Source: Desulfocapsaceae bacterium
Lineage (GTDB): Bacteria; Desulfobacterota; Desulfobulbia; Desulfobulbales; Desulfocapsaceae
Direction: 5' to 3'
Assembly (NCBI GenBank): GCA_031292275.1
Contig: JARLHL010000056.1
Location: 1-64,000 of the forward strand
DNA: 64,000 bases
The notes beneath the pieces are model-generated. The model made no database searches and had not been told where the DNA came from. It was given only the letters and a program-made list of their open reading frames with translations. The translations under genes and the position numbers were made by a program. The stretch's first letter is position 1, and each line of letters begins with the position of its first letter. This document shows positions 18,556 through 51,619 of the stretch, piece by piece.

Positions 18556-19325
18556 TACCATACCTTCCAGGGGGCCTTGCCCGATTGCCACAGCTCTTCG
18601 AGTAGATTTTTTTCACGCAGGGTGTCCATGGGCTGCCAGAAGCCGGTGTGCTCAAAGGCCATCAGCTGGCCATCCGCTGCAAGACCCACCAGGGGATCCA
18701 GTTCCCAACTGGTCTGATCTCCTTCTATACGGTCGATGCAGCGGGGAGAGAGGACGAAAAAACCGCCGTTGATCAGACCGCCGTCGCCTCGCGGTTTTTC
18801 GGAGAATCCCTGTACCATCTTTCCATTAATGGTCAGCGCCCCGTAACGCCCCGGAGGCTTGACGGCGGTGACGGTGGCGTGTTTTCCATGGGAGAGATGA
18901 AAATCGATTGTTCGAGAGATGTCAACATCGGCGACACCGTCTCCGTAGGTGAAACAGAAGGCCTCCTCCTCTCTGATATACCGGGCCACCCGTTTCAACC
19001 GACCGCCGGTCATGGTCTCCTCGCCGGTGTCTATCAGGGTGACCCTCCAGGGTTCAGCATGGCGCTGGTGCACCTCCATGGTGTTCTGGGCCATATCGAA
19101 GGTGACATCCGACATGTGTAGGAAGTAATTGGCGAAATACTCTTTGATGAGATATCCCTTATAGCCGCAGCAGATCACGAATTCGTGAACGCCGTGGGCC
19201 GAGTAGAGCTTCATGATATGCCAGAGGATGGGCTTGCCGCCAATCTCGATCATGGGTTTCGGTTTGAGGTGGGTCTCTTCACTAATCCGGGTCCCCAGTC
19301 CGCCTGCCAGAATGACTGCCTTCAT
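18555..19325 (-). CDS. rfbF: Glucose-1-phosphate cytidylyltransferase
   Basis: Makes CDP-glucose from glucose-1-phosphate and CTP, the committed step to CDP-linked deoxysugars. The 256-residue protein has the nucleotidyltransferase start AVILAGGLGTRISEETHLKP, then KPMIEIGGKPILWHIM, FTYGDGVADVDI, and GFWQPMDTLREKNLLEELW near the end. Its ATG overlaps the stop of the giant GT41 gene (ATGA at 19322-19325), so sugar activation is translationally coupled to the transferase. Confidence 0.96.
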   Translation of the reverse strand: MKAVILAGGLGTRISEETHLKPKPMIEIGGKPILWHIMKLYSAHGVHEFVICCGYKGYLIKEYFANYFLHMSDVTFDMAQNTMEVHQRHAEPWRVTLIDTGEETMTGGRLKRVARYIREEEAFCFTYGDGVADVDISRTIDFHLSHGKHATVTAVKPPGRYGALTINGKMVQGFSEKPRGDGGLINGGFFVLSPRCIDRIEGDQTSWELDPLVGLAADGQLMAFEHTGFWQPMDTLREKNLLEELWQSGKAPWKVW

Positions 19326-22300
19326 CGTCTCTCCTTACACCATTTTGCAAACATTTCTCTGTAGGCCGCCTCCACCTTGCGGGAGAAGGCGGGCTCGTTC
19401 ATGGCCGGTCCCGCCTGCATCTCCCGGCGGAGACCGGCACGCAAGCCTGCAAGTTTTGTTGTGTCGGCGGCCAGATTGACCGCATGCTCTATGTATTCCT
19501 CTTCCGACCTGGCGATCCACTCCGGATGCCCCGTGCCTTCTAGGACTGCACTCCCGACCCGGCCGACGCTGGGACGGCCGGCAAGGGTGATGAAGGGCAC
19601 CCCCATGTAGAGCGATTCGATAAGTGTGGTCCCCGAGTTGTGCGGGAAGCAATCGAGCCCTATATCCATGCTTCGTAATACATCCCAGGGGGGACTGTCA
19701 TAACCGATTTCCAGGCGATCCCGGCTGATACCGTGGGCGGCGAAGGTATCCGACACGCGCATCTGCATTTCATGATCGCGAAAGTCCCCGCTGTTTATGA
19801 TGAGACGCGCATCTTTCACCCTGGTGAGTATCTGAGCCCATACTGCAACTGTCCGGTGATTGATCCGGATGGCCCGGCTCAGGCTGCCAAAGGTGATATG
19901 GCCGCGATGCCTTGCCGGAAGTTCATTCACCTCTCCCATTTCTTCCGTCGGCCGGTAGACGAAGCAGGGCCCTTCAATATTCCACGGGGTCTCTGAAAAG
20001 AGGTCCTCGCTTCCCGGCGGCACACTGACGGAATCGGCGAGATAATAATCAATTGCCTTCAGGCCTGTGGTGTAACCGAAATCCAGCCAGTGCAGCGAGA
20101 CCGGCGCCGGTTTTCGGGCAAAGACCAGTAACCGGTTGTGCCGCGAATGCCCTGCCAGATCGACCAGTATGTCAATGCCGTCGGCGCGTATTCGCTCCGC
20201 CATATCCGCATCGCTCATTCCTGTCGTCGGTATCCAGTGGTCCATATAGGACCTGTACCGTTCGGTGGTGCTGTCTTCTCCCCGATGGAGTTCGGCATAG
20301 GCAAAGACCTCAACCTCGTCTTTATTGTGAAACGCCAGGAGGGGCTCAAGGAAATTGCATACCGGATGTTTACGGAACTCCGGCGATACATAGCCGATTT
20401 TCAACCGCCGGTTTGGATCCCGGATATTGGTGTGCGGCCGCCATTGGCCTCGGAGTGATTTGCAGAATCGTTCCTCAAATTTTGAATATTCCCTGAAAAT
20501 CTCCTGGCCGCTTCGCTCGGGATGATAGTTGAGAAGGAACAGAAGATTACTGAAGGCCTGAGGGAAATCCGGGTGCAGGGCAAGTACGGCGCGGAAGGTG
20601 ATCTCGGCCTGGGCCAGGTCTCCCTGTTTTAAGAGGATGTTGCCGAGATTGTTATGGGCAAAGGCATAGCCTGGCTGTATTGTCAGGGCCTCTCTGTAGG
20701 CTGTTTCCGCCTCGGTCAGCGCTCCCTGTTCCTGCACGGCGTTTCCAAGGTTGACGAGGGCCTCCAGATATCGGGGAAGTATCTGCAGGGCAGTGCGATA
20801 GCTGATCTCCGCCTCTTTCGCTTTCCCCTGATTGAGCAGGGAGTTGCCGAGATTATAAGAGGCCTCGGCGTTGGCGGGTTCGCGTTCAACCACCTGCCGG
20901 AAACAGGCTTCGGCCTCGGTGTGCCGGCTTTGACTGGAGAGCGATTTCCCTAGATTATGCAGGGCTTCGGGGTAAAAGGGTTTGATCTCCAGGGCCTTTC
21001 TGTAGGCTGTTTCGGCTTCCTGATACGCCCCTCGTTCGTCCTGGATGCAGCCCAGGGAATTGTAGACGGCAGCATACAGCGGCTTTACAGCCAAGGCCCG
21101 GCGGCAGGCGCTCTCCGCCTCATCCAGTTGCCCCGTCCTCAGGTAAATGAGACCAAGCGTACAAGAGGCTTCAGCAAAATTCGGTTTGAGTACCAGGGCC
21201 TCATGGCAGCAGGTCTCAGCCTCAGGGTATCTCTTCTGCTCATTGAGGATGAGACCAAGATTGACCAGTGCTTCGGGAAAATCCTGTTTCAGCTTCAGGG
21301 CCTTTCTGCAGCTGCGTTCGGCCTCCGGGAATTTTTGCTGAGACCGGAGAATAATGCCCAGGGTATTATGGGCATCCGCATAGTTTGGAGCAATGGATCG
21401 GGCCCTGCGGCAAAAGTCTTCCGCCTCTGCAAATCGTTCCAGGTCGCAGAGGAGGACCGCGATGTTTCTCAGGCAGATGGCATCCTTCGGCATGAGTTGT
21501 GCCGCAGTTTCCATTGCCGCTAAGGCCTCGTTGAAATCTCCCCTCTCCCGGAGCAGGGCGCCAAGCACCTTCCAGGTCTGACTGTCTTGAGGAAAACGGG
21601 AGATGAGCGATCGGGCCAGCTTTTCCGCATCGATAAAATTTCCCTGCTGGTAGAGCGAGACAAGCCTGCCGATCTCTTCGGACTGAGGACCGGACAGTCT
21701 CTGGCTGGCCTTTCTTTGCCGTTTTAATGGAGTTTTTTTGCCCGCTTTCAACTGCCGGCCCTGTTCTGAAGACGGAGTCGCTGTCCCGGAAGACGGTCGC
21801 CCCTCACCTGCCTCGTCTCCCCTGGTTTGAGTTGGGTCCGGGATATGCTCATGGGGGCCTGACTTGGAGGTCTGAACCGGTGACGATGGACTGCTGTCGC
21901 ACCATTGTGCAAACATTTCCCAGTAGGCCGATTCCACTTTGCGGACAAAGGTCGGTTCATCCATGAACGGACCAGTCTGCATCTCGCGGCGCAGACTGGT
22001 CCGCAATCGCATGAGTTCGTCAGGATCGGCTGCCAGCGCCACCGCCTTTGCCACATATTCCTCTTCCGTCTCGGCAATCCATTCCGGATGGCCGAAACTC
22101 TTGAGAATGGCGCTTCCAATCCTGCCGACACTCGGCCTGCTGGCCAGGCTTATATACGGTACCCCCATATAAAGGGTTTCAATCAGGGTGGTGCCGGAAT
22201 TATGGGGGAAGCAGTCGAGGCCTATATCCATATTCCGCAGCACGTCCCACGGCGGGCTGTGAAAGCCGATGTCCAACTGCTGGCCGCCTATCCCGTACGC

Positions 22301-25300
22301 CTTGAATCTTTCTGCCAGCTCGTTTTGCATCCCCGGGCTGATGAAATTGCTGCTGTCTATGACCAGTCGGGAGTTCTCGACTCGTTTCAGAATCTCTGAC
22401 CAGACCCGGATTGTACGGTGATTGATCCGGACCGCCCTGGTCAGTGTCCCGAAGGTGATATATCCGCGGCTTGCAGCAGGCAGAGGACTGATCTCGCCCA
22501 TACCTTCTGCCGGACGGTAGGCAAAAGACGGGGTCGGAAGGCGCCAGGGGAGTTCGGAGAACAGGCCTTCACTTCCCGGGGGCACTGTCGCTTCGTCGGT
22601 CAGATAATAGTCGATGGCCGTAAGACCCGTCGTATAGCCGAAATCCAGCCAGTGCAGGGATATTGGCGCGGGTTTGCGAGCAAAAACCTTGAGCCTGTTG
22701 TTTGCCGTATGGCCGGACAGATCGACGAGGATGTCGATACCGTCCTCTCTGATACAGTCAGCCAGGGCCGCATCGTCGAGGTCGGCAGTTATGATCCAGT
22801 GGTCGACATATGATCGGTATCGTGCTGAAAATTCGTCCTCTTTGGTAACATCGGCATAGGCGAAGATCTCGAAGCTCTGTCTGTCATGGTGGGCCAGCAG
22901 GGGCTCGAGAAAGTGGCGCGAGGAGTGCAGGCGGAACTGGGGGGACACATACCCGACTTTCACTACCCGTTCCGCCTGGCGGCTGTTCGTGTGCGGCCTG
23001 TGCTCAGCCTGGAGAGGAAGACCGAATCGGGCATTGAAGTTGCGGTATTCCGCGTAAATTTCTTCGGCACTCCTGTCCGGGTGATAGTTGAGAAGGAAGA
23101 GCAGATTGCTGTGGGCCTCGGTGAAATCCGGGTCGATCTCCAGGGCCCGGCGCAGACAGGTTTCGGCCTCCGGCAGGTGGCCCCGCTCCTTGAGGACCGA
23201 GCCGAGGTTGCTGGCGGCAAGGGCGGAATCCGGCTGGATACGCAGCGCCTCCCGATAGCTTTGTTCAGACTCCGGATACCGGCCCTGATCCTTGAGGCAG
23301 GCGCCGAGATTGATATGGGCCTGGGTGAAATCGGGGCTGATCTCCAGGGCCCGATGGTAGCTGTCCTCTGCCTCTGCATGCCGCCCGAGCATCTGCAGGG
23401 CGATGCCGAGATTGCTGCAGGCTTCAGGATAGTCGGGCCTGCAGGAGAGGGCGTTCCGGTACAGAATGATTGCTTCCTCCGGCCGATTTTGGCCCTTGCG
23501 CAGATTGCCGAGATTATAGAAGGCCTCTGCAAAATCCGGTTTGGCGGCCAAGGCTTTTTCAAAAGACTTCTCGGCTTCGCTGATCCTGCCCAGTAGTTGC
23601 AGGGTATTGCCCAGATTGCCAAGGGCCTCTGCAAAATCAGGTCTGAGCTGCACGGCCTTTTCGTAGCATGTCTGGGCCTCCGGCAAATTCCCCTGCGCAA
23701 AGAGGGTGTTTGCCAGGAGATAGTGCGATTCGGCGACCTGAGGGTTGTGAGCAAGGGATTGCTTGAAGGCCTCCACTGCTTCGGGAAACCGTTTCAGGTT
23801 GTGGAGGCAGTCGCCAAGGGCATTGTAGATTTCGAGGTCGTCCCGGGCAAGCAAGACTGCCCGCTTAAGCGCCTTCACCGCTTCGTCCAGCCGATTCCGG
23901 TACCTAAGCGTCAGCCCCAAGGCCTTCCAGGCCAGGGCGTTTTCAGGAAAATGACTGAGCAGGGATCGGGCTGTGGCCTCGCATTGCTCATACTGCTTCT
24001 GGTTGAATAAAGAGATGAGTTCCTCGATATCGTCAGGGTGCGGCCGGGAGGCGGATTGCCGGCTTTCCTGTTTCGCTGCCCGGGGAGCGGATTCCGAGGC
24101 CGGACCTGTCTTTATTGCGACCGACTCTGAGGGGTCCATCGCCAGCCGGGATGATAAGGCCTCGGTCTCTTCTCCGTCCAGACCGGCTTTGACCGCGATG
24201 GCCAGGATCTCCCTGGCTGAGTCGGTCTGGCCCGATTTTTCGAGGGCCTCAATGCATGCCAGCCAGTAGAGCCGTTGCCGGGGGTCGGCCTCCAGAGCTG
24301 CCTGAAAATACGGAAGGGCTGCGGCTGGCTGGCTGCGGGTCATCTCCAGAAGGCCCAAGTGGTAGCGGGCCTCTGCATTGTCCGGGTCTTGCCGGAGGAG
24401 GAAACGATAGATATATTCAGCATCCTTCAGATGGCCGAAAGATCGGTAGGCGGCGGCCTCTTTCCATGGATCCGGGGCCGGAAGGTTCATGTGCGTCTGC
24501 TGATCGGCAAGGCCGTCATCCTTGGCCCAAATCTCAAACATCTGCTGATAGGCAGTCTCCATTTTTCGGGCAAATGCCGGTTCATCCATCTGTGGACTTG
24601 CCTCTACCCGCTGGCGAAGCGTTGTCCTGAGATGGGCGAGCTGCTGGGTATCTGCTGCCAGTTTTACTGCAATTTCAATATATTCCTCTTTTGTTGAGGC
24701 AATCCAGTCTTCCATGCCAACCGCCACCAGAATAGAACTGGCAAGACGGCCGACGGAAGGACGTCCCGCCAGGGTGACAAAAGGAACTCCCATATAGATT
24801 GTCTCAAGCATGGTGGTCCCCGAGCTATGGGGGAAACAGTCAAGCCCGATATCCATGCCTCTCAGGATGTCCCATGGTGGACTGTGAAAACCGATCTCCA
24901 GTCGTTCTCTTGCAATGCCGTGGAGGGCGAATTTTTCTGCCAGGGCCGTCTGCATGGTCCGGTCTGCGAAATCACCGCTGTTGATTATCAGATGGGAGCC
25001 CTCAACCCGTTTCAGGATCTCTGCCCAGACCTGGATTAATCCGTGATTGATGCGGCTGGCCCGGGACAGTGTGCCGAAGGTGATATACCCGCGCTCAGCA
25101 GCGGGCAGAGGGCCGACTTCTCCTATATTCTCCGCCGGACGATAGGCACCTGCGGGTGTCTTGAGCCGCCAGGGTCTTTCCGAAAACAGCCCATCGCTTC
25201 CGATGGGTACAGTTGTATGATCGGTCAGGTAGTAATCGATGGCCGTCAGCCCTGTGGTATAGCCGAAATCGAGCCAGTGCAGGGAGACCGGGGCAGGCTT

Positions 25301-28300
25301 TCGGGCAAAGACTCCCAGACGGTTTTCCCCGGTGTGACCGGCCAGATCGACGAGGATATCGATGCCGTCTGTTCGTATTGCAGCGGCAAGCTCCGCGTCG
25401 CTGAGATTCGTGGTAACTATCCATTGATCGGCATAGGATTTATAACGAGCGGTTACTTCATCCTCGACAGAGATGTCGGCATAGAGACAGATCTCGAAAA
25501 GGTTTTTATCGTGGTGAGAGAGAAGCGGTTCGAGAAAGTGCCGGATGGAATGTCTGTACAGACTCGGGGAGACATATCCGACTTTCAACCGGCGGTGCGC
25601 GTCGCGACTGTTGGTGAAGGGCCTCCATTCCGCATGCAGCGGCAGACAGAATCTGCGGTTGAACGTTTTATATTCTTCGAAGATCTCTTCAGCGGTTTTG
25701 TCGGGATGATAGTTGAGCAGAAAGAGCAGGTCGCTGTGAATAGATGAGTCATCGGCCTTGAGTTCCATGGCTTGACGAAGATTGGTTTCTGCATCATGGA
25801 ACCGCGCCTGGCGAATCAGGGTGCTTACCATATTCTGGCGGAGCTTGGCGTTATGAGGATCATGGACCAATCCCTGCTGCAGGATATGTTCGGCTTCGAC
25901 GAGCCTGCCCTGCTTCTGGAGCAAGATACCCAGGTTGTTGTATGCAGGCGAGTATCCAGGTAGACATTGAATCGCCTGTCGGTACGATGCTTCGGCCTTG
26001 AGCAGTATCCTCTGCTCCTGATAAATGAGTCCCAGATTGTTGATTGCCTCGACCATTTCCGGCTGCAGTTGCAGGGCTTTTCGGCAGACTGCTTCGGCTT
26101 CTTGAAATTTTTCCTGCTCCTTATAGGTAAGACTCAGATTGCAGAGGATTTCCGCGGAGTCAGGTCTGATTTTTAAGGCGGATTGAAGACAGTCGGCGGA
26201 TTCCTCCAGTCTTTTTTGATGACGCAGGATATTGCCAAGATTGCAGCGGGCCTCAAAATAATTCGGTTTCAAGGCCAGGACCCGGCGGTAGAATGTTTCC
26301 GCCTCAGCTGGCCGGTCACTGGCGTTGAGAATATTTCCAAGGTTGTACAGAGCATTGACATGATTCCTGCTCAGCTGCAGGGTGTTGCGGTAGCTGAGCT
26401 CCGCCGCCTCGGTCTGCCCCGCCTGTTCCTGGGCGATGCCAAGATTGTAATGGGCGTCAGGATCGTCGGGCAGGCAGAGGGCTGCCTGTTCCATGGCCTG
26501 GATGGCCTCGTCAATCAGCCCCTGGCCATGCAGAAGCGGGCCAAGGACCTTCCAGCCGAATCCGTGCAGGGGAAAGCGTGCGGTCAATGACCGGGCAAGC
26601 GTAACGGCCTCCTGAACATTTCCTCTATTATAGAACTGCGTCAGCTTCTGAATTTCGGATCTGGGCGGCTGGGCGGCATGACGGTTCTGCTTTTGCCGGG
26701 TTTCACGGCCTTTCCCTCTTTGTTTGTGCCCGTCTGCCGATAGAGAAGAGGGCCCCGCCTTTGACGCCGAGCCGGCCTGCAGGTCAGCAGGGCGGTCGTC
26801 CGTAGGCATTGCAGCAGGCATCTTCTGTCCTGCCTCATGCCAGCGCAAAAACATTCCCTGATAGGCCGCCTCGATATTTCTGGTGAACCCCTCCTCATCC
26901 CTCAAGGCGCTGTTTTGCATCTCCTGTCGTAATGTCGCTCGGAGGTCTGCGAGTCTGTCCAGATCAGTGGCCAGCATCATGGCACGATCAATATATTCCT
27001 CCTCGCTTTGGGCGATCCATTCCGGGTGCCCTGCACTTTCCAGGATCGCGCTGCCCACCCTGCCGACGCTGGGGCGGTCGGCCAAAGTGACATAGGGCAC
27101 TCCCATATGGAGGCTTTCAACCAGGGTCGTCCCGGAATTGTGGGGAAAACAGTCAAGGCTGATATCGATATTCCGCAGGATGTCCCAGGGAGGGGAATTG
27201 AATCCTATCTCGAGTCTGTCCCTTTCTATACCGTAAGAGATGAATTCGGCTGCCAGAGACTCCTGATGCGCAGGCTCGCTGAAACTGCTGCTGTTGATGA
27301 CGAGGTGGGCACCGGGGCATCGTTTCAATAGTGCGGACCATACGCGAATTGTCCGATGATTTATGCGGACGGCCCGGCTCAGCACGCCAAAGGTGACGTA
27401 TCCCTTCTTCTGGGCCGGGAGGGCGCTTATCGGGCCGGCCTCAGCGGGAGGGCGGTAGATGGAGAAAGGAGAGGGCAGGTACCAGGGTGTTTCCGAGAAA
27501 AGATGTGCGCTTTCGGGGGGGACGCTGATGCGATCTGTCAGGTAGTAATCGATTGCCGTAAGCCCGGTGGTATAGCCGAAATCCAGCCAGTGCAGAGAAA
27601 CCGGGGCGGGTTTGCGGGCAAAGACCCCCAGCCGGTTGTCGGCCGTATGCCCGGCCAGATCCACGAGAACATCAATGGCATCCCTGCGGATACGTTGGCT
27701 CAGCTGTTCATCCGTGAGTCCGGCAGCGGCTATCCAGTGGTCTGCGTAGCCCTGGAACAGATCTGTCGCCGCGCTCTCCGGGGGCAGTTCCACATAGGCA
27801 TAGATCTCAAAAATTGTCCTGTCATGATGCGAGAGGAGAGGATTCAGGAAGTGCCGTGCGGGATGCCGGTTGTAATCCGGGGCAACGTAGCCGATCTTGA
27901 GCCGGCGGTTGCCGGGAGGCGCGTTGGTGTGCGGGGTCCACGAGGGATGGCAGGGGATGCAGAATCGGCTGTTGAACTCCTGATATGCCTGAAAGATCTC
28001 CTCGGCGCTCTTGTCGGGATGGTAGTTCAGGACGAAGAGCAGGGTGCTGAAGGCATTTTTGTGATCCGGCTTCAGGCTTAAGGCTTGGCGCAGGCAGACT
28101 TCCGCCTCCAGGGGCCGTCCGTTTTCCTGCAGGATATTGCCCAGGTTGTAGTAGGCATTGTAAGAGTCGGGGCTCATTGCAATGACCTTCCGGTACCAGG
28201 TCTCGGCCTTGGCGGGTTGGGCCTGGAGTTTATAGGTGTTGGCCAGATTGTAACAGGCATCGGTGTAATCCGGCCTGATTTCCAGGGCCTTTAACAGGGC

Positions 28301-29730
28301 CTTTTCTGCATCCGCAAATCGTTTTTCCTGCTGAAAGACAACCCCCAGGTTATTATAGGCTTCAACAAAGTCAGGTCTGCTGTTTATCGACTGAATATAT
28401 TGATTTTTTGCTTTTTGAAGGTCCCGCAGTTGCTGGTATTCGACGCCGAGATTATAGAGCGTTGATGCCCCATCCGCACCCTGTCGGGATCTTTCGCTGC
28501 CGGAAAGATGATCGGGCTGCGCTGTTTCTCTGTACCACTTGTCGAACATTTGCTGATAGGCATCCTCAATTCCTCTGGTAAAGGCCGGCTCGTCAGTAAG
28601 GGGGCAGTGTTGTATTTTCTGCCTCAATCCGGCCCGTATTGCAGCCAGGACAGTCACATCCGAGGCAAGCGATACAGCTTTATTGATATACTCCTCCTCC
28701 GTCCGGGCGATCCATTCCGGAAGGCCTGCTCCTTCCAGGATGGAACAGCCAATCCTCCCGACACTAGATCTTCCTGCCAGGGTGATGAAGGGGATACCCA
28801 GGAAGAGGCCTTCCATCAACGTGGTCCCCGAGTTGTGAGGAAAACAATCCAGGCCTATATCGATGCTGCGGAGCACGTCCCAGGGAGGACTGTGGTAGCC
28901 GACGTCCAGACGGCTCGGATCAATGCCCTGTGCCGTAAATTTATCCAGAATCAATTGCTGTATTTCCGGATGATTGAAATTGCCGCTGTCGATCACCAGC
29001 CGCGATCCTTCAACCCGGTTGAGGATCGCAGACCATGCCCGAACGGTTCGGTAGTTGATCCGTATAGCCCGCGTCAGGGTCCCGAAGGTGATGAATCCAT
29101 TCTCAGCAGCGGGTAAAGGGCCGGCCTCGCCCATTGCTGCCGTTGGCCGGAAGGCGAAGGACGGAGGAGGCAGTCTCCAGAGCTGCTCCGAGAAAAGATG
29201 TTCGCTTCCGATGGGAGCGGTGCTTAAGTCTGTGAGATAGTAGTCGATGGCGGTGAGGCCTGTGGTGTAGCCGAAGTCGAGCCAGTGCAGGGACACCGGG
29301 GCCGGTTTGCGGGCAAAGACCCCCAGCCTGTTTCGGCTGGTATGCCCTGCAAGGTCGACAAGGATGTCTATTTTGTCTCTTCGGATACGCCGGGCCACTT
29401 CGTCGTCGGAAAGCCCGATGGTGGGAATCCAGTGATCAATATGCTGCCTGTATCGCCCGGTTTGCAGGTCTTCCTTGTATATTTCGGCATAGGCGAAGAT
29501 TTCAAACCGGGTTTTATCATGGTGTTCCAACAGGGGTTCAAGGAAGTGGGAGGCGGGGTGTCTGCAAAAAGCCGGTGAAACGTAGCCCACTTTCAGCCGG
29601 CGGGAAGAGGCAGGGGGATTGGTATGCGCCGCCCATTGTTGTCGCAGCGGCAGACAGAACCGCTGGTCATATTCCTGGTATAATGCAAATATTTCTTTGC
29701 CGCTCCTGTCGGGGTGGTAGTTGGAGACGA
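19322..29730 (-). repeat. Five diverged repeats of the GT41 catalytic module
   Basis: Catalytic modules lie near 28530-29730, 26840-28030, 24520-25715, 21900-23095 and 19322-20535 (N- to C-terminal). The HWLDFGYTTGL segment recurs near 29280, 27580, 25265, 22640 and 20080, so spacing varies from about 1700 to 2625 bases because the TPR arrays differ in length. Copies are diverged in sequence, which argues against an assembly artefact. Confidence 0.9.
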
Positions 29731-30928
29731 AGAGGAGGGCCTGGAAGGCATCGGAAAAATCGGGTTTTATTGTGAGGGCCTTTCGATAGCACTGTTCCGA
29801 TTCTTCAAGAGAACCCCTGCAGTGCAGGATGTTGCCGAGATTTTTATAGGCAAAGGCAAAGTCGGGCTTCAGATCCAGTGCCCTGCGCAATACGGTCTCG
29901 GCTTCCGACAACCTTCCCTGGGCGTGAAAGACGTTTCCGAGATTGTTCAAGGCGTCGGCAGAGGAGGGATTGAGCGTGATGGCCTGCTGGAGATGCATGA
30001 CTGATTCGGCCAGCCGCCCCTGATATTGCAGATTGATGCCAAGGTTGCTGGAGGCTTCATCATATTCCGGTTGAATCTCCACCGCCCTGCGCAGACAGGC
30101 CTCGGATTCAGCCAGCCGTCCCTGAGACAGCAGGGTGACGCCCAGATGGTTTTGCGCTGCCGCGAAATCCTCTCTTATTGAAAGCGCCCGGCGCAGGACT
30201 GTTTCGGATTCTGCGAATTCCCCCCTGTTTTCAAGGACTATGCCTAGGTTGTTCAGACATTCTGGATCATCGGGCAGCAGGATGACCGCCAGTCTCATCG
30301 CCTCGACTGCCTCATCAAGCCTCCCCTGCTGCCTGAGCGTAGCCCCCAGGATCTTCCATGTCAGACCGTGATCGGGAAACCGTGTCACCATTGAGCGAGC
30401 CAATTCCTCGCAGTCGGTAAACGTCCCCGGGCTATAGAGCGACACAAGCTTGTCGATGTCCGCTTGTGCCGGAGTGCCATTCGAGGCGACTTGGGCTGGT
30501 GAGCGCGATGCAGAAATATCAGGACTGTCCTGGGCGGCAGACGCTGCCCGGAGCCTAATCCGCAGGGCATCGACCTCTTCCCCTTCCAGCCCCGCCTGGC
30601 TGGCGATCTTCAACGTCTCCAGGGCCAGCCCGGTTTGCCCGGCCCTGTCCAGAGCGTCGATATAGGTGATCCAGAAGGGTCCATGCTCGGGCCTTTTGTC
30701 CAGAGCCCTTTCGAAATAGGGCAGACCTGCTGCCGCCTGATTTCTGTGGAGGGCAAGAAGTCCAATGGAGAAATTGGCCTCGGGGTGATCGGCCTGGATG
30801 GCGAGGATGGCCTGGTAGTATTCTTCCGCCTCGTCGATCCTGCCTTCCTGCCGGAGCTGCGAGGCGGTATCGAGGGCTTCTTGTATGAGGGCCTGGGATG
30901 GCAGTTCGGATTGAGAGGTTGACGTCAT
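19322..30928 (-). CDS. Giant five-module TPR-O-GlcNAc-transferase-type (GT41) glycosyltransferase
   Basis: A 3868-residue protein. Approximate layout in residues: TPR 1-399, catalytic 400-799; short TPR 800-965, catalytic 966-1362; TPR 1363-1738, catalytic 1739-2136; TPR 2137-2611, catalytic 2612-3009; TPR 3010-3464, catalytic 3465-3868. Every catalytic module begins NYHPD/ERS-K-T and carries GYVxP, the conserved His (RHP or similar), DILVDLxGH, ARKPAPVSLHWLDFGYTTGL, FGxLxRAxRIN, DIGLDCFPHNSGTT and SVGR, matching the GT41 (OGT/SPINDLY) GT-B fold. Low-complexity linkers precede modules 3, 4 and 5. I place the start at ATG 30928 (MTSTSQSELPSQ), without a clear ribosome site. Likely a cytoplasmic protein O-glycosyltransferase. 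Donor and acceptors are unknown. Its stop overlaps rfbF. Confidence 0.93.
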   Translation of the reverse strand: MTSTSQSELPSQALIQEALDTASQLRQEGRIDEAEEYYQAILAIQADHPEANFSIGLLALHRNQAAAGLPYFERALDKRPEHGPFWITYIDALDRAGQTGLALETLKIASQAGLEGEEVDALRIRLRAASAAQDSPDISASRSPAQVASNGTPAQADIDKLVSLYSPGTFTDCEELARSMVTRFPDHGLTWKILGATLRQQGRLDEAVEAMRLAVILLPDDPECLNNLGIVLENRGEFAESETVLRRALSIREDFAAAQNHLGVTLLSQGRLAESEACLRRAVEIQPEYDEASSNLGINLQYQGRLAESVMHLQQAITLNPSSADALNNLGNVFHAQGRLSEAETVLRRALDLKPDFAFAYKNLGNILHCRGSLEESEQCYRKALTIKPDFSDAFQALLFVSNYHPDRSGKEIFALYQEYDQRFCLPLRQQWAAHTNPPASSRRLKVGYVSPAFCRHPASHFLEPLLEHHDKTRFEIFAYAEIYKEDLQTGRYRQHIDHWIPTIGLSDDEVARRIRRDKIDILVDLAGHTSRNRLGVFARKPAPVSLHWLDFGYTTGLTAIDYYLTDLSTAPIGSEHLFSEQLWRLPPPSFAFRPTAAMGEAGPLPAAENGFITFGTLTRAIRINYRTVRAWSAILNRVEGSRLVIDSGNFNHPEIQQLILDKFTAQGIDPSRLDVGYHSPPWDVLRSIDIGLDCFPHNSGTTLMEGLFLGIPFITLAGRSSVGRIGCSILEGAGLPEWIARTEEEYINKAVSLASDVTVLAAIRAGLRQKIQHCPLTDEPAFTRGIEDAYQQMFDKWYRETAQPDHLSGSERSRQGADGASTLYNLGVEYQQLRDLQKAKNQYIQSINSRPDFVEAYNNLGVVFQQEKRFADAEKALLKALEIRPDYTDACYNLANTYKLQAQPAKAETWYRKVIAMSPDSYNAYYNLGNILQENGRPLEAEVCLRQALSLKPDHKNAFSTLLFVLNYHPDKSAEEIFQAYQEFNSRFCIPCHPSWTPHTNAPPGNRRLKIGYVAPDYNRHPARHFLNPLLSHHDRTIFEIYAYVELPPESAATDLFQGYADHWIAAAGLTDEQLSQRIRRDAIDVLVDLAGHTADNRLGVFARKPAPVSLHWLDFGYTTGLTAIDYYLTDRISVPPESAHLFSETPWYLPSPFSIYRPPAEAGPISALPAQKKGYVTFGVLSRAVRINHRTIRVWSALLKRCPGAHLVINSSSFSEPAHQESLAAEFISYGIERDRLEIGFNSPPWDILRNIDISLDCFPHNSGTTLVESLHMGVPYVTLADRPSVGRVGSAILESAGHPEWIAQSEEEYIDRAMMLATDLDRLADLRATLRQEMQNSALRDEEGFTRNIEAAYQGMFLRWHEAGQKMPAAMPTDDRPADLQAGSASKAGPSSLSADGHKQRGKGRETRQKQNRHAAQPPRSEIQKLTQFYNRGNVQEAVTLARSLTARFPLHGFGWKVLGPLLHGQGLIDEAIQAMEQAALCLPDDPDAHYNLGIAQEQAGQTEAAELSYRNTLQLSRNHVNALYNLGNILNASDRPAEAETFYRRVLALKPNYFEARCNLGNILRHQKRLEESADCLQSALKIRPDSAEILCNLSLTYKEQEKFQEAEAVCRKALQLQPEMVEAINNLGLIYQEQRILLKAEASYRQAIQCLPGYSPAYNNLGILLQKQGRLVEAEHILQQGLVHDPHNAKLRQNMVSTLIRQARFHDAETNLRQAMELKADDSSIHSDLLFLLNYHPDKTAEEIFEEYKTFNRRFCLPLHAEWRPFTNSRDAHRRLKVGYVSPSLYRHSIRHFLEPLLSHHDKNLFEICLYADISVEDEVTARYKSYADQWIVTTNLSDAELAAAIRTDGIDILVDLAGHTGENRLGVFARKPAPVSLHWLDFGYTTGLTAIDYYLTDHTTVPIGSDGLFSERPWRLKTPAGAYRPAENIGEVGPLPAAERGYITFGTLSRASRINHGLIQVWAEILKRVEGSHLIINSGDFADRTMQTALAEKFALHGIARERLEIGFHSPPWDILRGMDIGLDCFPHSSGTTMLETIYMGVPFVTLAGRPSVGRLASSILVAVGMEDWIASTKEEYIEIAVKLAADTQQLAHLRTTLRQRVEASPQMDEPAFARKMETAYQQMFEIWAKDDGLADQQTHMNLPAPDPWKEAAAYRSFGHLKDAEYIYRFLLRQDPDNAEARYHLGLLEMTRSQPAAALPYFQAALEADPRQRLYWLACIEALEKSGQTDSAREILAIAVKAGLDGEETEALSSRLAMDPSESVAIKTGPASESAPRAAKQESRQSASRPHPDDIEELISLFNQKQYEQCEATARSLLSHFPENALAWKALGLTLRYRNRLDEAVKALKRAVLLARDDLEIYNALGDCLHNLKRFPEAVEAFKQSLAHNPQVAESHYLLANTLFAQGNLPEAQTCYEKAVQLRPDFAEALGNLGNTLQLLGRISEAEKSFEKALAAKPDFAEAFYNLGNLRKGQNRPEEAIILYRNALSCRPDYPEACSNLGIALQMLGRHAEAEDSYHRALEISPDFTQAHINLGACLKDQGRYPESEQSYREALRIQPDSALAASNLGSVLKERGHLPEAETCLRRALEIDPDFTEAHSNLLFLLNYHPDRSAEEIYAEYRNFNARFGLPLQAEHRPHTNSRQAERVVKVGYVSPQFRLHSSRHFLEPLLAHHDRQSFEIFAYADVTKEDEFSARYRSYVDHWIITADLDDAALADCIREDGIDILVDLSGHTANNRLKVFARKPAPISLHWLDFGYTTGLTAIDYYLTDEATVPPGSEGLFSELPWRLPTPSFAYRPAEGMGEISPLPAASRGYITFGTLTRAVRINHRTIRVWSEILKRVENSRLVIDSSNFISPGMQNELAERFKAYGIGGQQLDIGFHSPPWDVLRNMDIGLDCFPHNSGTTLIETLYMGVPYISLASRPSVGRIGSAILKSFGHPEWIAETEEEYVAKAVALAADPDELMRLRTSLRREMQTGPFMDEPTFVRKVESAYWEMFAQWCDSSPSSPVQTSKSGPHEHIPDPTQTRGDEAGEGRPSSGTATPSSEQGRQLKAGKKTPLKRQRKASQRLSGPQSEEIGRLVSLYQQGNFIDAEKLARSLISRFPQDSQTWKVLGALLRERGDFNEALAAMETAAQLMPKDAICLRNIAVLLCDLERFAEAEDFCRRARSIAPNYADAHNTLGIILRSQQKFPEAERSCRKALKLKQDFPEALVNLGLILNEQKRYPEAETCCHEALVLKPNFAEASCTLGLIYLRTGQLDEAESACRRALAVKPLYAAVYNSLGCIQDERGAYQEAETAYRKALEIKPFYPEALHNLGKSLSSQSRHTEAEACFRQVVEREPANAEASYNLGNSLLNQGKAKEAEISYRTALQILPRYLEALVNLGNAVQEQGALTEAETAYREALTIQPGYAFAHNNLGNILLKQGDLAQAEITFRAVLALHPDFPQAFSNLLFLLNYHPERSGQEIFREYSKFEERFCKSLRGQWRPHTNIRDPNRRLKIGYVSPEFRKHPVCNFLEPLLAFHNKDEVEVFAYAELHRGEDSTTERYRSYMDHWIPTTGMSDADMAERIRADGIDILVDLAGHSRHNRLLVFARKPAPVSLHWLDFGYTTGLKAIDYYLADSVSVPPGSEDLFSETPWNIEGPCFVYRPTEEMGEVNELPARHRGHITFGSLSRAIRINHRTVAVWAQILTRVKDARLIINSGDFRDHEMQMRVSDTFAAHGISRDRLEIGYDSPPWDVLRSMDIGLDCFPHNSGTTLIESLYMGVPFITLAGRPSVGRVGSAVLEGTGHPEWIARSEEEYIEHAVNLAADTTKLAGLRAGLRREMQAGPAMNEPAFSRKVEAAYREMFAKWCKERR

Positions 30929-31467
30929 GGTCAGGATGCCTGTCAAAAATTCATGGAATGGAGGGCCTTTCTGCGTATCTCGATGTCTTTGGCGTTTTGA
31001 TCGATGCCGAATCTCACAGAGCGCCAGGAACAGGACACCATCGGCAGCGTTTTGACCGCCCGGTTTTCTCACAAGGGACCGGCCGGGCTCGAAGGAGTTC
31101 CTTCAAGGGAGGAAAGCCTTTGACTTCAATAAGTAACATGCGTAACAGACCGTTAGAATATGCTTTCATATCCCTATTATTCTTGTCAAGGTCTATCTCA
31201 TCGGCACCAGAGGTTCCTGGGCATGATAATCGGCAAAATTCTTCTTTTAAAGCATCGTATAATCATGACACTTTTCGTCAGAGTGGTCCGAAAAGTTTAA
31301 TACAATAAAGAAGATGATGGCATTGCATTGCAGGAACGGAGGGGGAAGGGAAGGCATTTCGGGAACAGCGGCCTTGTCGTGCCGGAGGGGCAAGTGTTTA
31401 GGATTTGTTGATTCTGGCCAATACGGTTGCGCCATGCTGGCTGAAAGAAAGTGGCAGTCCTCCCCAA
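30929..31467. other. Intergenic region between the arsS-like gene and the GT41 gene
   Basis: No gene is supported. It must hold the promoter of the minus-strand GT41 operon. A TTGACA lies at 31184-31189 on the minus strand, without a convincing -10 at normal spacing. The start of the region includes the SECIS-like hairpin that trails the arsS-like gene. Confidence 0.4.
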
Positions 31468-31488
31468 CTAGGAGGCAATGACCCCGCC
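31453..31488 (-). promoter_or_regulatory. Candidate bacterial SECIS hairpin
   Basis: Directly after the in-frame UGA the minus-strand RNA can pair CCUCC (31471-31475) with GGAGG (31459-31463) around the loop UAGUUGG. A U-G wobble would shrink the loop to AGUUG. An outer GGC/GCC pair is possible. The loop starts about 18 nt after UGA, within the range expected for bacterial SECIS elements, and has a G early in the loop. Confidence 0.5.
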
Positions 31489-32421
31489 TCAGGTGAAGCC
31501 TGAGCCTGCGGTGCAGGCGTAACAGTGATCATCCGTGATGATCGACGTACCTGCAGAAAGTGATGATATTGCGGAGATATGGACCTTGTCGCCGGTGGAG
31601 GGAAGGTCGGCCGCCTGGTTGAAATCGCAGTCATAGAGAAAACCGTCCCAGGAGACGCTGATAAGCGTCCGGCACATCAGGCCGTCAATGGTCGAGGGAT
31701 TGAAGCCTCCGGCCAGCCTGTCCATATATTGGGTAAAGTTGCCGGAGCTCTCCAGCCAGCGGCGAAAACGCCCGAGCGGGACATTGGCGAAGGTGAAAAG
31801 ATGGGTGAAAGTAATATTCCATCTGCGGGCCAGATCGGTCTTGATTTTTTTTTCTGCCTGGCATTGTGCAACCGGCATAAAAGCCCCGCTGGGGTTGGCA
31901 ACCAGATTCAGGACAAGGGGGCTCTCCGGCATCCCGTAACCCATGGCGTTGAGCCTTTTCAGCATTGCAATGCTGTCCTGCCAGACCCCTTTGCCCCGCT
32001 GGGAGTCGGTCTGGCCGGCATTGGTTGAAGGAAACGAGGCGGTGATTTCCACCTCCAGGGCTTTGCACAGTTCCAGAAGCGGGGCGTACTCCTCCTGGAG
32101 CAGGAGGACCAGGTTCGTTCGGAGGATCAGGCGGGCCACCAGCGGTCGAAGTTCCCGCAGCAGGAAGTCGATTCCCGGTACCAGTTCCGGCGCGCCGCCG
32201 GTGATGTCGGCCGTCTGAAAATCGTTTTGTTTCGCAAAATGAATGATATCATTCATGGTCTTTCTGTCCATGACCTCAGTCCGTCCGGCCCCGGCGTCGA
32301 CATGGCAGTGACGGCAGGCAAGATTGCAGCGGCGGCCGACATTGATCTGCAGGGTCGTGGTCGTGCCGCGTTGCAGGTGAAGCTGATGTTCGGCCAGCGT
32401 TTTTGCGAAGGGTTTCACCAT
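31468..32421 (-). CDS. arsS: ArsS-like radical SAM protein, probable selenoprotein (UGA read as Sec311)
   Basis: A radical SAM protein of the ArsS / 'radical SAM, selenocysteine' family, linked to arsenosugar synthesis. The cluster motif is CNLACRHC (Cys32, 36, 39). DITGGAPELVP and the C-terminal HCYACTAGSGFT follow. Family members end CxxCTAGxGSSCxG. Here the codon at the last Cys is TGA (31489-31491), and in-frame translation continues GGVIAS to TAG at 31468. The natural product is therefore 317 residues with selenocysteine at 311. Read conventionally, the protein would stop one residue before its conserved Cys. A SECIS-like hairpin follows, and selB is in this window. It lies 45 bases after its AhpD-like partner. 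Confidence 0.85.
31489..31491 (-). other. In-frame UGA, probable selenocysteine codon
   Basis: Reads TTC ACC TGA GGC GGG GTC ATT GCC TCC TAG on the minus strand. The TGA occupies the position of the conserved Cys in the family's C-terminal GSSCxG signature. Confidence 0.8.
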
Positions 32422-32928: not shown

Positions 32929-34383
32929 TCAGCCAGGCTGATCCATCCTGAAATCGATCTGCACCGGGCAGTGGTCCGAACCCATGATATCTTTCAGGAT
33001 CAAGGCCTTGTCGACCCGGCCAGCATGGGCCACATCCACACAGAAATAATCAATGCGCCAGCCGATGTCCTTTGACCGGGCATTAAAACGGTAGCTCCAC
33101 CATGTATAGTGTCCGGGATCCTGGTGAAAGATCCTGAAGGTGTCGACGAAACCCGCCTGAACAAAGGTGTCCATCCAGTGCCGTTCCTCGGGGGTGAATC
33201 CGGCATTGGCTGTGTTTCTTGCCGGGTTAGTCAGGTCGATTTCCTTGTGGGCGACATTATAATCACCGCAGATGACGACGCACTTCCGCCGGGCAAGATC
33301 CTGGGCAAAATCCAGGAATTTCTTGTTGAACCTGAGCTTGAAGTCAAGACGCTTCAGGCCGTCGGCGCTGTTGGGAAAATAGGCGGTTACAAAAAAGAAA
33401 GAGGGGAACTCCAGGGTCAATACCCGGCCTTCGCAGTCGAATTCCGGATCACCCAGACCCTGCAGGACATGCATCGGCTGCAGGCGGGAGTAGATTGCCA
33501 CTCCCGAATATCCCTTCCGTTCGGCGCTGTGCCAGTAGGAGGTATAGCCCGGGATATTTTTCAACTCCTCCGAGAGCTGATCTTTCCGGGCCTTGGTCTC
33601 CTGCAGGGCGATGATATCGGCGTCCAGATCCTGAAGGACCTGAACGAATCCTTTTTTCTCCACTGCCCGGATCCCGTTGACATTCCAGGAGATAAACTTT
33701 TTGAGGCCTGTCTCCGGGCCCTGGGTTGTCCCGGGATGGCGGCGGGGGGCGACGCCCCGCTGCGGACAGTCCGGCAGGAGAGGGCAGGCATCGCAATGGG
33801 GTCCGACGGGGCGGCAGATGGACTGGCCGAAGGCCACCAGCAGGGAGTTGACGGTGAGCCAGTGCCGGGCCGGCAGTTTTTCCCGGAGGGCCATCTCTGT
33901 CTCAAGGGGAGTGGCCGTGGTCACGTACTCCCAGATATTCATAATCCGATGGACATGGGTGTCGACGCAGATTGCCGGTTTTTTATAGGCAACGGCCACC
34001 ACCAGATTGGCCGTCTTGCGCCCGACCCCGGGGAGGGTAATCAACTGCTCGACCGTATCGGGGACCACGTTATTGTACCGGGCCAGGGCCTGGGGCAGCC
34101 GAGCCAGGTAGGCCGCCTTGTTTTTATAAAAGCCGACCGGATAAATGAGCGCGGCAATTTTTTCTCCTGAAAGGGCGGCGAGTCCTTTCAGGTCCGCAGC
34201 CGCGGCAAAGAGCCGTGCCGAGGCTGCGGCTGTGGTCTCATCCTTGGTCCGGGCCGAGAGGATGGTGGCAACAAGGACCTTGAAGGGATCTTCGGTCTGA
34301 ACGGCGATCAGGTCGACAATGGGCACTTTTTTATCCTGTACCGCCTGCATGACCGTCCTCAGAAAGACATCAATATCGATCAT
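32929..34383 (-). CDS. Endonuclease III-exonuclease III fusion
   Basis: A single 484-residue open frame joins two base-excision-repair enzymes. Residues 1-215 are endonuclease III: HhH and catalytic Lys in LPGVGRKTANLVV (Lys123), Asp141 in VDTHVHRI, and a C-x6-C-x2-C-x5-C iron-sulfur site (Cys190, 197, 200, 206). Residues from 228 are exonuclease III/AP endonuclease: KKFISWNVNGIRA, LQETKA, YSGVAIYSR, GDYNVAH, WRIDYF and GSDHCPV, ending soon after as expected. The joint is a short Pro/Gly/Thr linker. Start ATG 34383 has AGGAG upstream. The fusion would couple glycosylase/AP-lyase incision with 3'-end cleaning. Confidence 0.92.
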   Translation of the reverse strand: MIDIDVFLRTVMQAVQDKKVPIVDLIAVQTEDPFKVLVATILSARTKDETTAAASARLFAAAADLKGLAALSGEKIAALIYPVGFYKNKAAYLARLPQALARYNNVVPDTVEQLITLPGVGRKTANLVVAVAYKKPAICVDTHVHRIMNIWEYVTTATPLETEMALREKLPARHWLTVNSLLVAFGQSICRPVGPHCDACPLLPDCPQRGVAPRRHPGTTQGPETGLKKFISWNVNGIRAVEKKGFVQVLQDLDADIIALQETKARKDQLSEELKNIPGYTSYWHSAERKGYSGVAIYSRLQPMHVLQGLGDPEFDCEGRVLTLEFPSFFFVTAYFPNSADGLKRLDFKLRFNKKFLDFAQDLARRKCVVICGDYNVAHKEIDLTNPARNTANAGFTPEERHWMDTFVQAGFVDTFRIFHQDPGHYTWWSYRFNARSKDIGWRIDYFCVDVAHAGRVDKALILKDIMGSDHCPVQIDFRMDQPG

Positions 34384-34474
34384 ATGAACTCCTGCTGCCT
34401 CTCTGCAGCATTCAGATATGCCTTGTAGAGAAAAAGAACTCTTGCCGGACCTCTTCACCGGCCTGCGCCGGCCG

Positions 34475-35740
34475 CTATTCCCCGGTGATGAGGGTGTCGG
34501 GGGCGAACTGCAGGGTGGCGAAATAATCCTCTTCGGTTTCCGCCCGGCGGATAAGCTCCACCGAGCCGTCGACATTGAGCAGCAGCTCTTTCGGCCGGAG
34601 CCTGCCGTTATAGTTGAAGCCCATGGCATGGCCGTGGGCCCCGCTGTCCTGAATGATCAGGAGGTCGTTCTCTGCGATGGGCGGGAGCGGTCTCTGGATG
34701 GCGAATTTGTCATTGTTCTCACAGAGGGAACCGACAACATCGACGAGCTCTGACGGCTGCTCCCCTTCCTTGCCGAGGACCTCGATGTGATGGTATGCGC
34801 CGTAGAGGGCAGGGCGCATCAGGGAGGTCATGCAGCCATCCACGCCGATATAGGTCCGGTAGATGTCCTTTCTGTTGATGGCCCTGACAATCAACACGCC
34901 ATGAGGGCCGGTCATGAACCGTCCGCTCTCCATATAGAGGGCGGGGGTATAGCCGTTCCGCCGGTTGAAAGCACTGAAGAGGTCTGTGACCTCCCGGCCC
35001 AGGGCCTCAAGGTCCAGCGGGGCAACTCCCGGCTGGTAGGGAATGCCCAGACCGCCGCCGATATTGATAAAACGGAAAGTGATTCCCAGCTCCTTCTGGA
35101 TGTACTCGACGAGCTCCAGAAGGGTTCTGGCCGTCTGGACCATATAGGTATAATTCAGCTCATTGGAGGCCAGCATCGTATGGATGCCGAACTGGATTGC
35201 GCCCCGTTCTTTGGCAAGGCGATAGGCATCGACGATCTGGCTGTGACTGACCCCGTATTTGGCCTCCACCGGGTTGCCGATGATGCTGTTGCCGGTCCGG
35301 AGCGGGCCCGGGTTGTAACGAAAGCAGATCAGTTCAGGCATCCGGGGAACCTTGGCGATCAGCGAGATATCGTCCAGGTTGAGGATGCAGCCGCCGTCTG
35401 CGGCCGCCGCCTGGAATTCCTCCCGGCTGGTGTTGTTGGAGGTGAACATGATATCGCCGCCGCTGCAGCCTGCTCGCCTGCTTAAGATCAATTCTGCAAC
35501 GGAACTGCAGTCAAAGCCGAATCCCATTGTCTTCATAAGTGTGAGGATTGCAGGGTTCGGCAGGGCCTTGACGGCAAAATATTCACGAAATTCAGGGATT
35601 TTGGCGAAGGCTTCCTTTATTCGATTGCCGGTTTCACGGATGCCGGCCTCATCATATATGTGGAACGGGGTTCCGTAGTGTTCTGCAATTTCCGGGAGTT
35701 TTTTGAAAAGGCTGTCTTTGAAGGATCGGGACATCGGCAT
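34475..35740 (-). CDS. lysA: Diaminopimelate decarboxylase
   Basis: Catalyses the last step of lysine synthesis, meso-DAP to L-lysine. The 421-residue PLP enzyme has an alanine-racemase-like barrel: Lys58 in YFAVKALPNP binds PLP, GGGLGIPY binds phosphate, then ESGRFMTGPHG, VGSLCENNDKFA and, at the end, DSGAHGHAMGFNYNGRLRPKELLL. I chose ATG 35740, which has GAGAG about 9 bases upstream. ATG 35734 is close and equally possible. The carboxynorspermidine or ornithine decarboxylase branch of this fold is an alternative, but the C-terminus is LysA-like. Confidence 0.88.
   Translation of the reverse strand: MPMSRSFKDSLFKKLPEIAEHYGTPFHIYDEAGIRETGNRIKEAFAKIPEFREYFAVKALPNPAILTLMKTMGFGFDCSSVAELILSRRAGCSGGDIMFTSNNTSREEFQAAAADGGCILNLDDISLIAKVPRMPELICFRYNPGPLRTGNSIIGNPVEAKYGVSHSQIVDAYRLAKERGAIQFGIHTMLASNELNYTYMVQTARTLLELVEYIQKELGITFRFINIGGGLGIPYQPGVAPLDLEALGREVTDLFSAFNRRNGYTPALYMESGRFMTGPHGVLIVRAINRKDIYRTYIGVDGCMTSLMRPALYGAYHHIEVLGKEGEQPSELVDVVGSLCENNDKFAIQRPLPPIAENDLLIIQDSGAHGHAMGFNYNGRLRPKELLLNVDGSVELIRRAETEEDYFATLQFAPDTLITGE

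Positions 35741-49687: not shown

Positions 49688-51619
<1,932 letters not shown>

Follow-up and report, generated by a model that had tools for sequence, protein, structure and literature searches.

A predicted selenocysteine-containing ArsS radical SAM protein with a stop codon inside its putative SECIS in a Desulfocapsaceae bacterium

According to a review that cites a study of the radical SAM enzyme ArsS, arsenic is adenosylated by radical SAM chemistry during oxo-arsenosugar biosynthesis (PMC12159101). ArsS is also entered in selenoprotein tables as a predicted selenoprotein with the motif GxxU (PMC13188914, PMC9312934), and the NCBIfam family TIGR04167 (rSAM_SeCys) already carries selenocysteine (Sec) in its full name, 'arsenosugar biosynthesis radical SAM (seleno)protein ArsS'. 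Since two reviews list the family as a predicted selenoprotein, the kind of selenoprotein described here is already catalogued, and the known family gains a new example. Reversal from Sec to cysteine is described as a rare event in prokaryotes, with FdhA and SelD as the main known cases (PMC13188914).

The new arsS gene lies in a 64,000-nucleotide stretch of DNA from a Desulfocapsaceae bacterium, the whole of which is called the window below. Its in-frame UGA almost certainly encodes Sec. The evidence is at the sequence level and consists of the reading frame, the equivalence of Cys and UGA among homologues, a covarying hairpin and the genes of the Sec machinery; from these we infer the actual insertion of Sec at codon 311 and the function of the enzyme.

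The arsS reading frame and its UGA codon

The following features of the window are considered in this section:

31468 to 32421, minus strand: arsS gene including the predicted Sec codon and the UAG stop, 317 amino acids, with the radical SAM motif CxxxCxxC at residues 32-39, a DUF3641/twitch-like C-terminus and CTAGSGFTU
31489 to 31491, minus strand: UGA codon predicted to be read as Sec 311, aligned with the invariant Cys/UGA position of 170 homologues
31471 to 31488, minus strand: predicted read-through tail GGVIAS, with the Gly at +2 and the Ile at +4 conserved in UGA genes
31468 to 31470, minus strand: predicted true stop UAG, the U of which closes the putative SECIS stem while its A and G open the loop
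32467 to 32799, minus strand: arsenosugar biosynthesis-associated peroxidase-like protein (TIGR04169, 197.4 bits, cut-off 120), with a CxxC motif and no Sec
49688 to 51619, plus strand: selB, selenocysteine-specific elongation factor (TIGR00475, 370 bits, cut-off 242)

The frame, the UGA, the tail and the UAG given in the initial annotation of this locus were all exact on re-reading. The frame starts with an ATG at 32421 and continues for 310 codons (32421-31492, minus strand) up to the UGA at 31491-31489, after which GGC GGG GTC ATT GCC TCC encode GGVIAS and the UAG follows at 31470-31468. A standard gene caller would indeed shorten the gene, but the loss amounts to seven residues, U plus six, rather than to the six initially proposed. 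Correcting the annotation matters because the seven lost residues include the last conserved cysteine position.

Against TIGR04167 (cut-off 300), ArsS scores 370.3 bits when the tail is left off and 379.5 bits when it is included by read-through, a gain of 9 bits; the read-through query also took the UAG as Tyr and added five residues, which lie outside the matched stretch 16-314. Pfam matches were obtained to Radical_SAM (PF04055, 38.8 bits) and DUF3641 (PF12345, 150 bits), and the CxxxCxxC motif, the C-terminal DUF3641 and HCxxCTAGxG..C/U that characterize TIGR04167 are all present. The TIGR04169 gene sits 45 nt upstream of arsS, and it neighbours arsS in 35 of the 37 Sec loci with enough flanking sequence. 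Two other reading frames around arsS are worth recording. On the minus strand at 32929-34629, a single frame combines endonuclease III (residues 111-279) with exodeoxyribonuclease III (residues 311-560), a fused base-excision repair protein that is matched in one stretch by L064 of the sister species, at 78% over residues 67-563, and a 3916-amino-acid open reading frame at 19322-31072 on the same strand contains repeated TPR and O-GlcNAc-transferase-like modules, as recognized by eye.

For comparison, 170 ArsS homologues with a readable C-terminus, including a few repeats (one genome, two loci), were collected from 93 genomes of the same family, 395 genomes of the same phylum and GTDB contigs. 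At position 311 the codon is UGA in 75 of them, UGC in 65 and UGU in 30, i.e. Cys in 95. The proposal that the UGA falls on a conserved Cys is thus borne out, and the homologues do not stop short of this position. The invariant cysteines of ArsS are residues 32, 36, 39, 250, 265, 300 and 303, together with position 311 if Sec is counted as C. The signature CTAGxGSSCxG, initially given for the family, applies to the Cys-containing ArsS proteins (CTAGxGSSCGG) but not here, because the clade of the present gene has CTAGxGF[TS]U; the change from S to F marks the main selenocysteine clade.

Downstream of the UGA, codon +2 specifies Gly in all 75 UGA genes, with all four GGN codons in use, and codon +4 specifies Ile in 64 of the 75. 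This conservation indicates a constraint at the protein level that extends beyond the UGA. The read-through tail also has the length of the tail of Cys homologues, for example GFTCGGAIKT* in L082, and together with the gain in the TIGR04167 score this agrees with the earlier view that read-through restores a family-like C-terminus. It is very unlikely that the UGA is instead a true stop that yields a truncated ArsS of 310 amino acids followed by an untranslated relic. The 370 bits retained without the tail and the insignificant fold of the single sequence would fit such a stop, but the invariant Gly with its four synonymous codons, the matching tail length, the covariation of the hairpin (see below) and the full Sec machinery of the genome all speak against it.

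An error in the UGA codon was a further concern, as the window belongs to a draft genome of 114 contigs and the real codon might be UGC or UGU. The UGA is kept, however, in the independent genome of a sister species with 76% identity (L031; the same 3' end in L064), which argues that it is not a sequencing error. It recurs at other UGA loci from independent assemblies, among them a Geobacter-labelled locus with 57% identity (L068), whereas the hairpin is missing from the nine Cys genes that belong to this clade. A sequencing or assembly error is therefore extremely improbable.

The bacterial Sec set of SelA, SelB, SelD and tRNA-Sec is complete in the genome. SelB had been placed 17 kb away, in agreement with the distance of about 17.3 kb between selB and arsS; SelA is encoded on contig C49, two SelD on contigs C2 and C64 and a tRNA-Sec with TCA anticodon on contig C45. 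SelB exceeds the cut-off in 40 of 42 genomes with a UGA-containing arsS, the remaining two being 73% and 92% complete, and in 27 of 33 genomes with the GSSC form. The selD gene on contig C64 (L213, G000:C64:33414-34343) itself contains a UGA in frame close to the N-terminus (TCG-U-AAK), as is typical of Sec-containing SelD.

The putative SECIS hairpin and the stop codon within it

One further feature is needed here:

31459 to 31475, minus strand: putative bSECIS upper stem-loop CCUCCU-AGUUG-GGGAGG, overlapping the UAG stop and proposed from the comparison of hairpins and their covariation

The hairpin can be drawn with 6 bp and a 5-nt loop or with 5 bp and a 7-nt loop, and both loop sizes had been anticipated. 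The distance of 18-19 nt from the UGA, however, leads to the start of the apical loop and not to the stem, which begins after about 13 nt. Published limits for bSECIS elements are a loop of 3-9 nt, a stem of 4-16 bp, a G among the first two loop nucleotides, a spacing of 16-37 nt and an MFE of -7.5 or lower (PMC13188914), and the hairpin of the window lies within them (6 bp, 5-nt loop AGUUG, 19 nt, -14.6 kcal/mol). The single-sequence fold from the window, with an MFE of -15.1 kcal/mol and z = -0.17 relative to shuffled sequences, is ordinary for its composition, so that the hairpin of this one sequence proves nothing by itself and the case rests on comparison. When the window and the part with the hairpin were scanned against Rfam, no SECIS family was matched.

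A hairpin in register that has a stem of 4 bp or more and a G among the first two loop nucleotides is found in 72 of the 75 UGA genes versus 12 of the 95 Cys genes. Among distinct UGA 3' ends it is present in 67 of 70, as compared to a mean of 37 and a maximum of 46 when the 3' arms were swapped between genes (300 trials). The outer positions +16 to +18 are variable, and 124 of the 168 pairs that could form there do so, versus 55±6 (maximum 73) after arm swapping. Both swapping controls leave sequence relatedness in and take the best pairing as the hairpin in real and swapped sets alike. At +17, CG, GC, AT, TA, TG and GT all occur. The proposed SECIS fold is thus represented by a bSECIS-compatible hairpin that covaries across relatives.

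Because the hairpin overlaps the stop codon at the end of the gene, it could also be read as a transcription terminator or another 3' element. We consider this very improbable, given that its spacing from the UGA is fixed, its loop has a G among the first two nucleotides, no U-run comes directly after it in the window and it is largely absent downstream of Cys genes. With high confidence we prefer the reading that this is an orthologue of arsS in which Sec takes the place of the last conserved cysteine at the C-terminus, through recoding of UGA 311 by the downstream hairpin.

Of the 70 distinct UGA genes, 60 have their true stop inside the hairpin, and in 57 of the 70 the stop is at nucleotide +21. 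Stops inside the hairpin are UAG or UGA and never UAA, and all four UAA stops are outside the hairpin; the commonest stop among the Cys genes is UAA (41 of 95). Codon +6 has the form N-C-C in 68 of 75 UGA genes. We read this pattern as a stop codon that supplies part of the top of the putative SECIS. In the mechanism proposed here, the ribosome would reach the UGA at codon 311 of arsS, SelB carrying Sec-tRNA(Sec) would bind the hairpin just downstream and Sec would be inserted, whereupon six more codons would be translated up to the UAG in the apical region of the hairpin itself. The overlap between stop codon and SECIS represents a testable constraint on recoding.

Selenocysteine and cysteine on the ArsS tree

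A quick maximum likelihood tree was built from 137 ArsS proteins after removal of the motif and the tail. The Sec state changes eight times on this tree, versus 46 times with shuffled labels. One clade contains 69 Sec genes and nine Cys genes, every one of which carries the F of GF[TS], and parsimony distributes the nine Cys genes over about six places. This suggests about six Sec-to-Cys reversals within the F clade, a soft number because the starred branches by themselves require no more than three changes across the entire tree. None of the nine Cys genes has a hairpin in register. On balance we favour a reading in which the stop is built into the SECIS, so that one RNA element would govern Sec insertion as well as the place where translation ends, and in which several Sec-to-Cys reversals were accompanied by loss of the hairpin.

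Loss of SelB was considered as the cause of reversion to Cys and was rejected: SelB exceeds the cut-off in all five testable genomes with Cys genes of the F clade, and loss of the machinery is therefore not the cause there. Two Sec genes with the motif GSTU and with hairpins (L144, L145) are placed inside the GSSC clade and probably represent a separate Cys-to-Sec gain; SelB was not found in the genome of L144, which is 73% complete. With Sec and Cys versions in one clade and in selenoprotein-capable organisms, the ArsS family provides a system to ask why a radical SAM enzyme uses selenium.

Arsenic context and comparison with known systems

By analogy with the arsenosugar route published for ArsS, the enzyme probably transfers the 5'-deoxyadenosyl radical to a methylated trivalent arsenical. 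The invariant C-terminal cysteines 250, 265, 300 and 303 plausibly hold an auxiliary Fe-S cluster, and it is our guess that residue 311, Sec or Cys, would serve as a fifth chalcogen, either for the As(III) substrate or for redox. An AlphaFold model based on 57 sequences has a pLDDT of 88, with a value of 44 in the tail that is too low to place residue 311. For NF038099, the ArsM family of the arsenosugar type, the genome yielded no methyltransferase that exceeds the cut-off, which makes an arsenosugar product uncertain in this organism; a TIGR04283 glycosyltransferase is present elsewhere in the genome.

The same genome encodes an ArsM-like methyltransferase (L208, G000:C64:70943-71611, minus strand) with an in-frame UGA (WSQ-U-VGGAIPGG) that is followed by a hairpin. 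The query behind its methyltransferase domain match had C at the Sec position and an N-terminal prefix that is absent from the genome, and only the domain match was used. Its UVGG motif resembles the UxxG of ArsM selenoproteins listed in a review, and the protein is a probable second arsenic-related selenoprotein of this genome. The apparent use of Sec in an ArsM-like methyltransferase as well suggests that selenium and the chemistry of arsenic are linked.

The best PDB matches of the ArsS model are the SPASM/twitch radical SAM enzymes SkfB, EpeE, BlsE and SuiB, which share the predicted fold, but differ by their low identity of about 14-17%, their other substrates and the lack of Sec. The Cys-containing ArsS proteins of Firmicutes, Synergistetes and other bacteria are much closer, as they belong to the same family and share both the set of invariant cysteines and the H-C-x-x-C-T-A-G motif. 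They deviate from the present protein in having Cys at the Sec position, S where it has F two residues earlier and mostly no hairpin, and a glycosyltransferase is found in the flank of 30 of 74 Cys loci versus 6 of 37 Sec loci. The closest described counterpart is the listed ArsS selenoprotein AAR34688.1, which belongs to the same family and, set beside our protein by its listed motif GxxU, has Sec at a like position, here GFTU. Nothing essential separates the predicted protein from the listed selenoprotein form of TIGR04167; what is new is the species.
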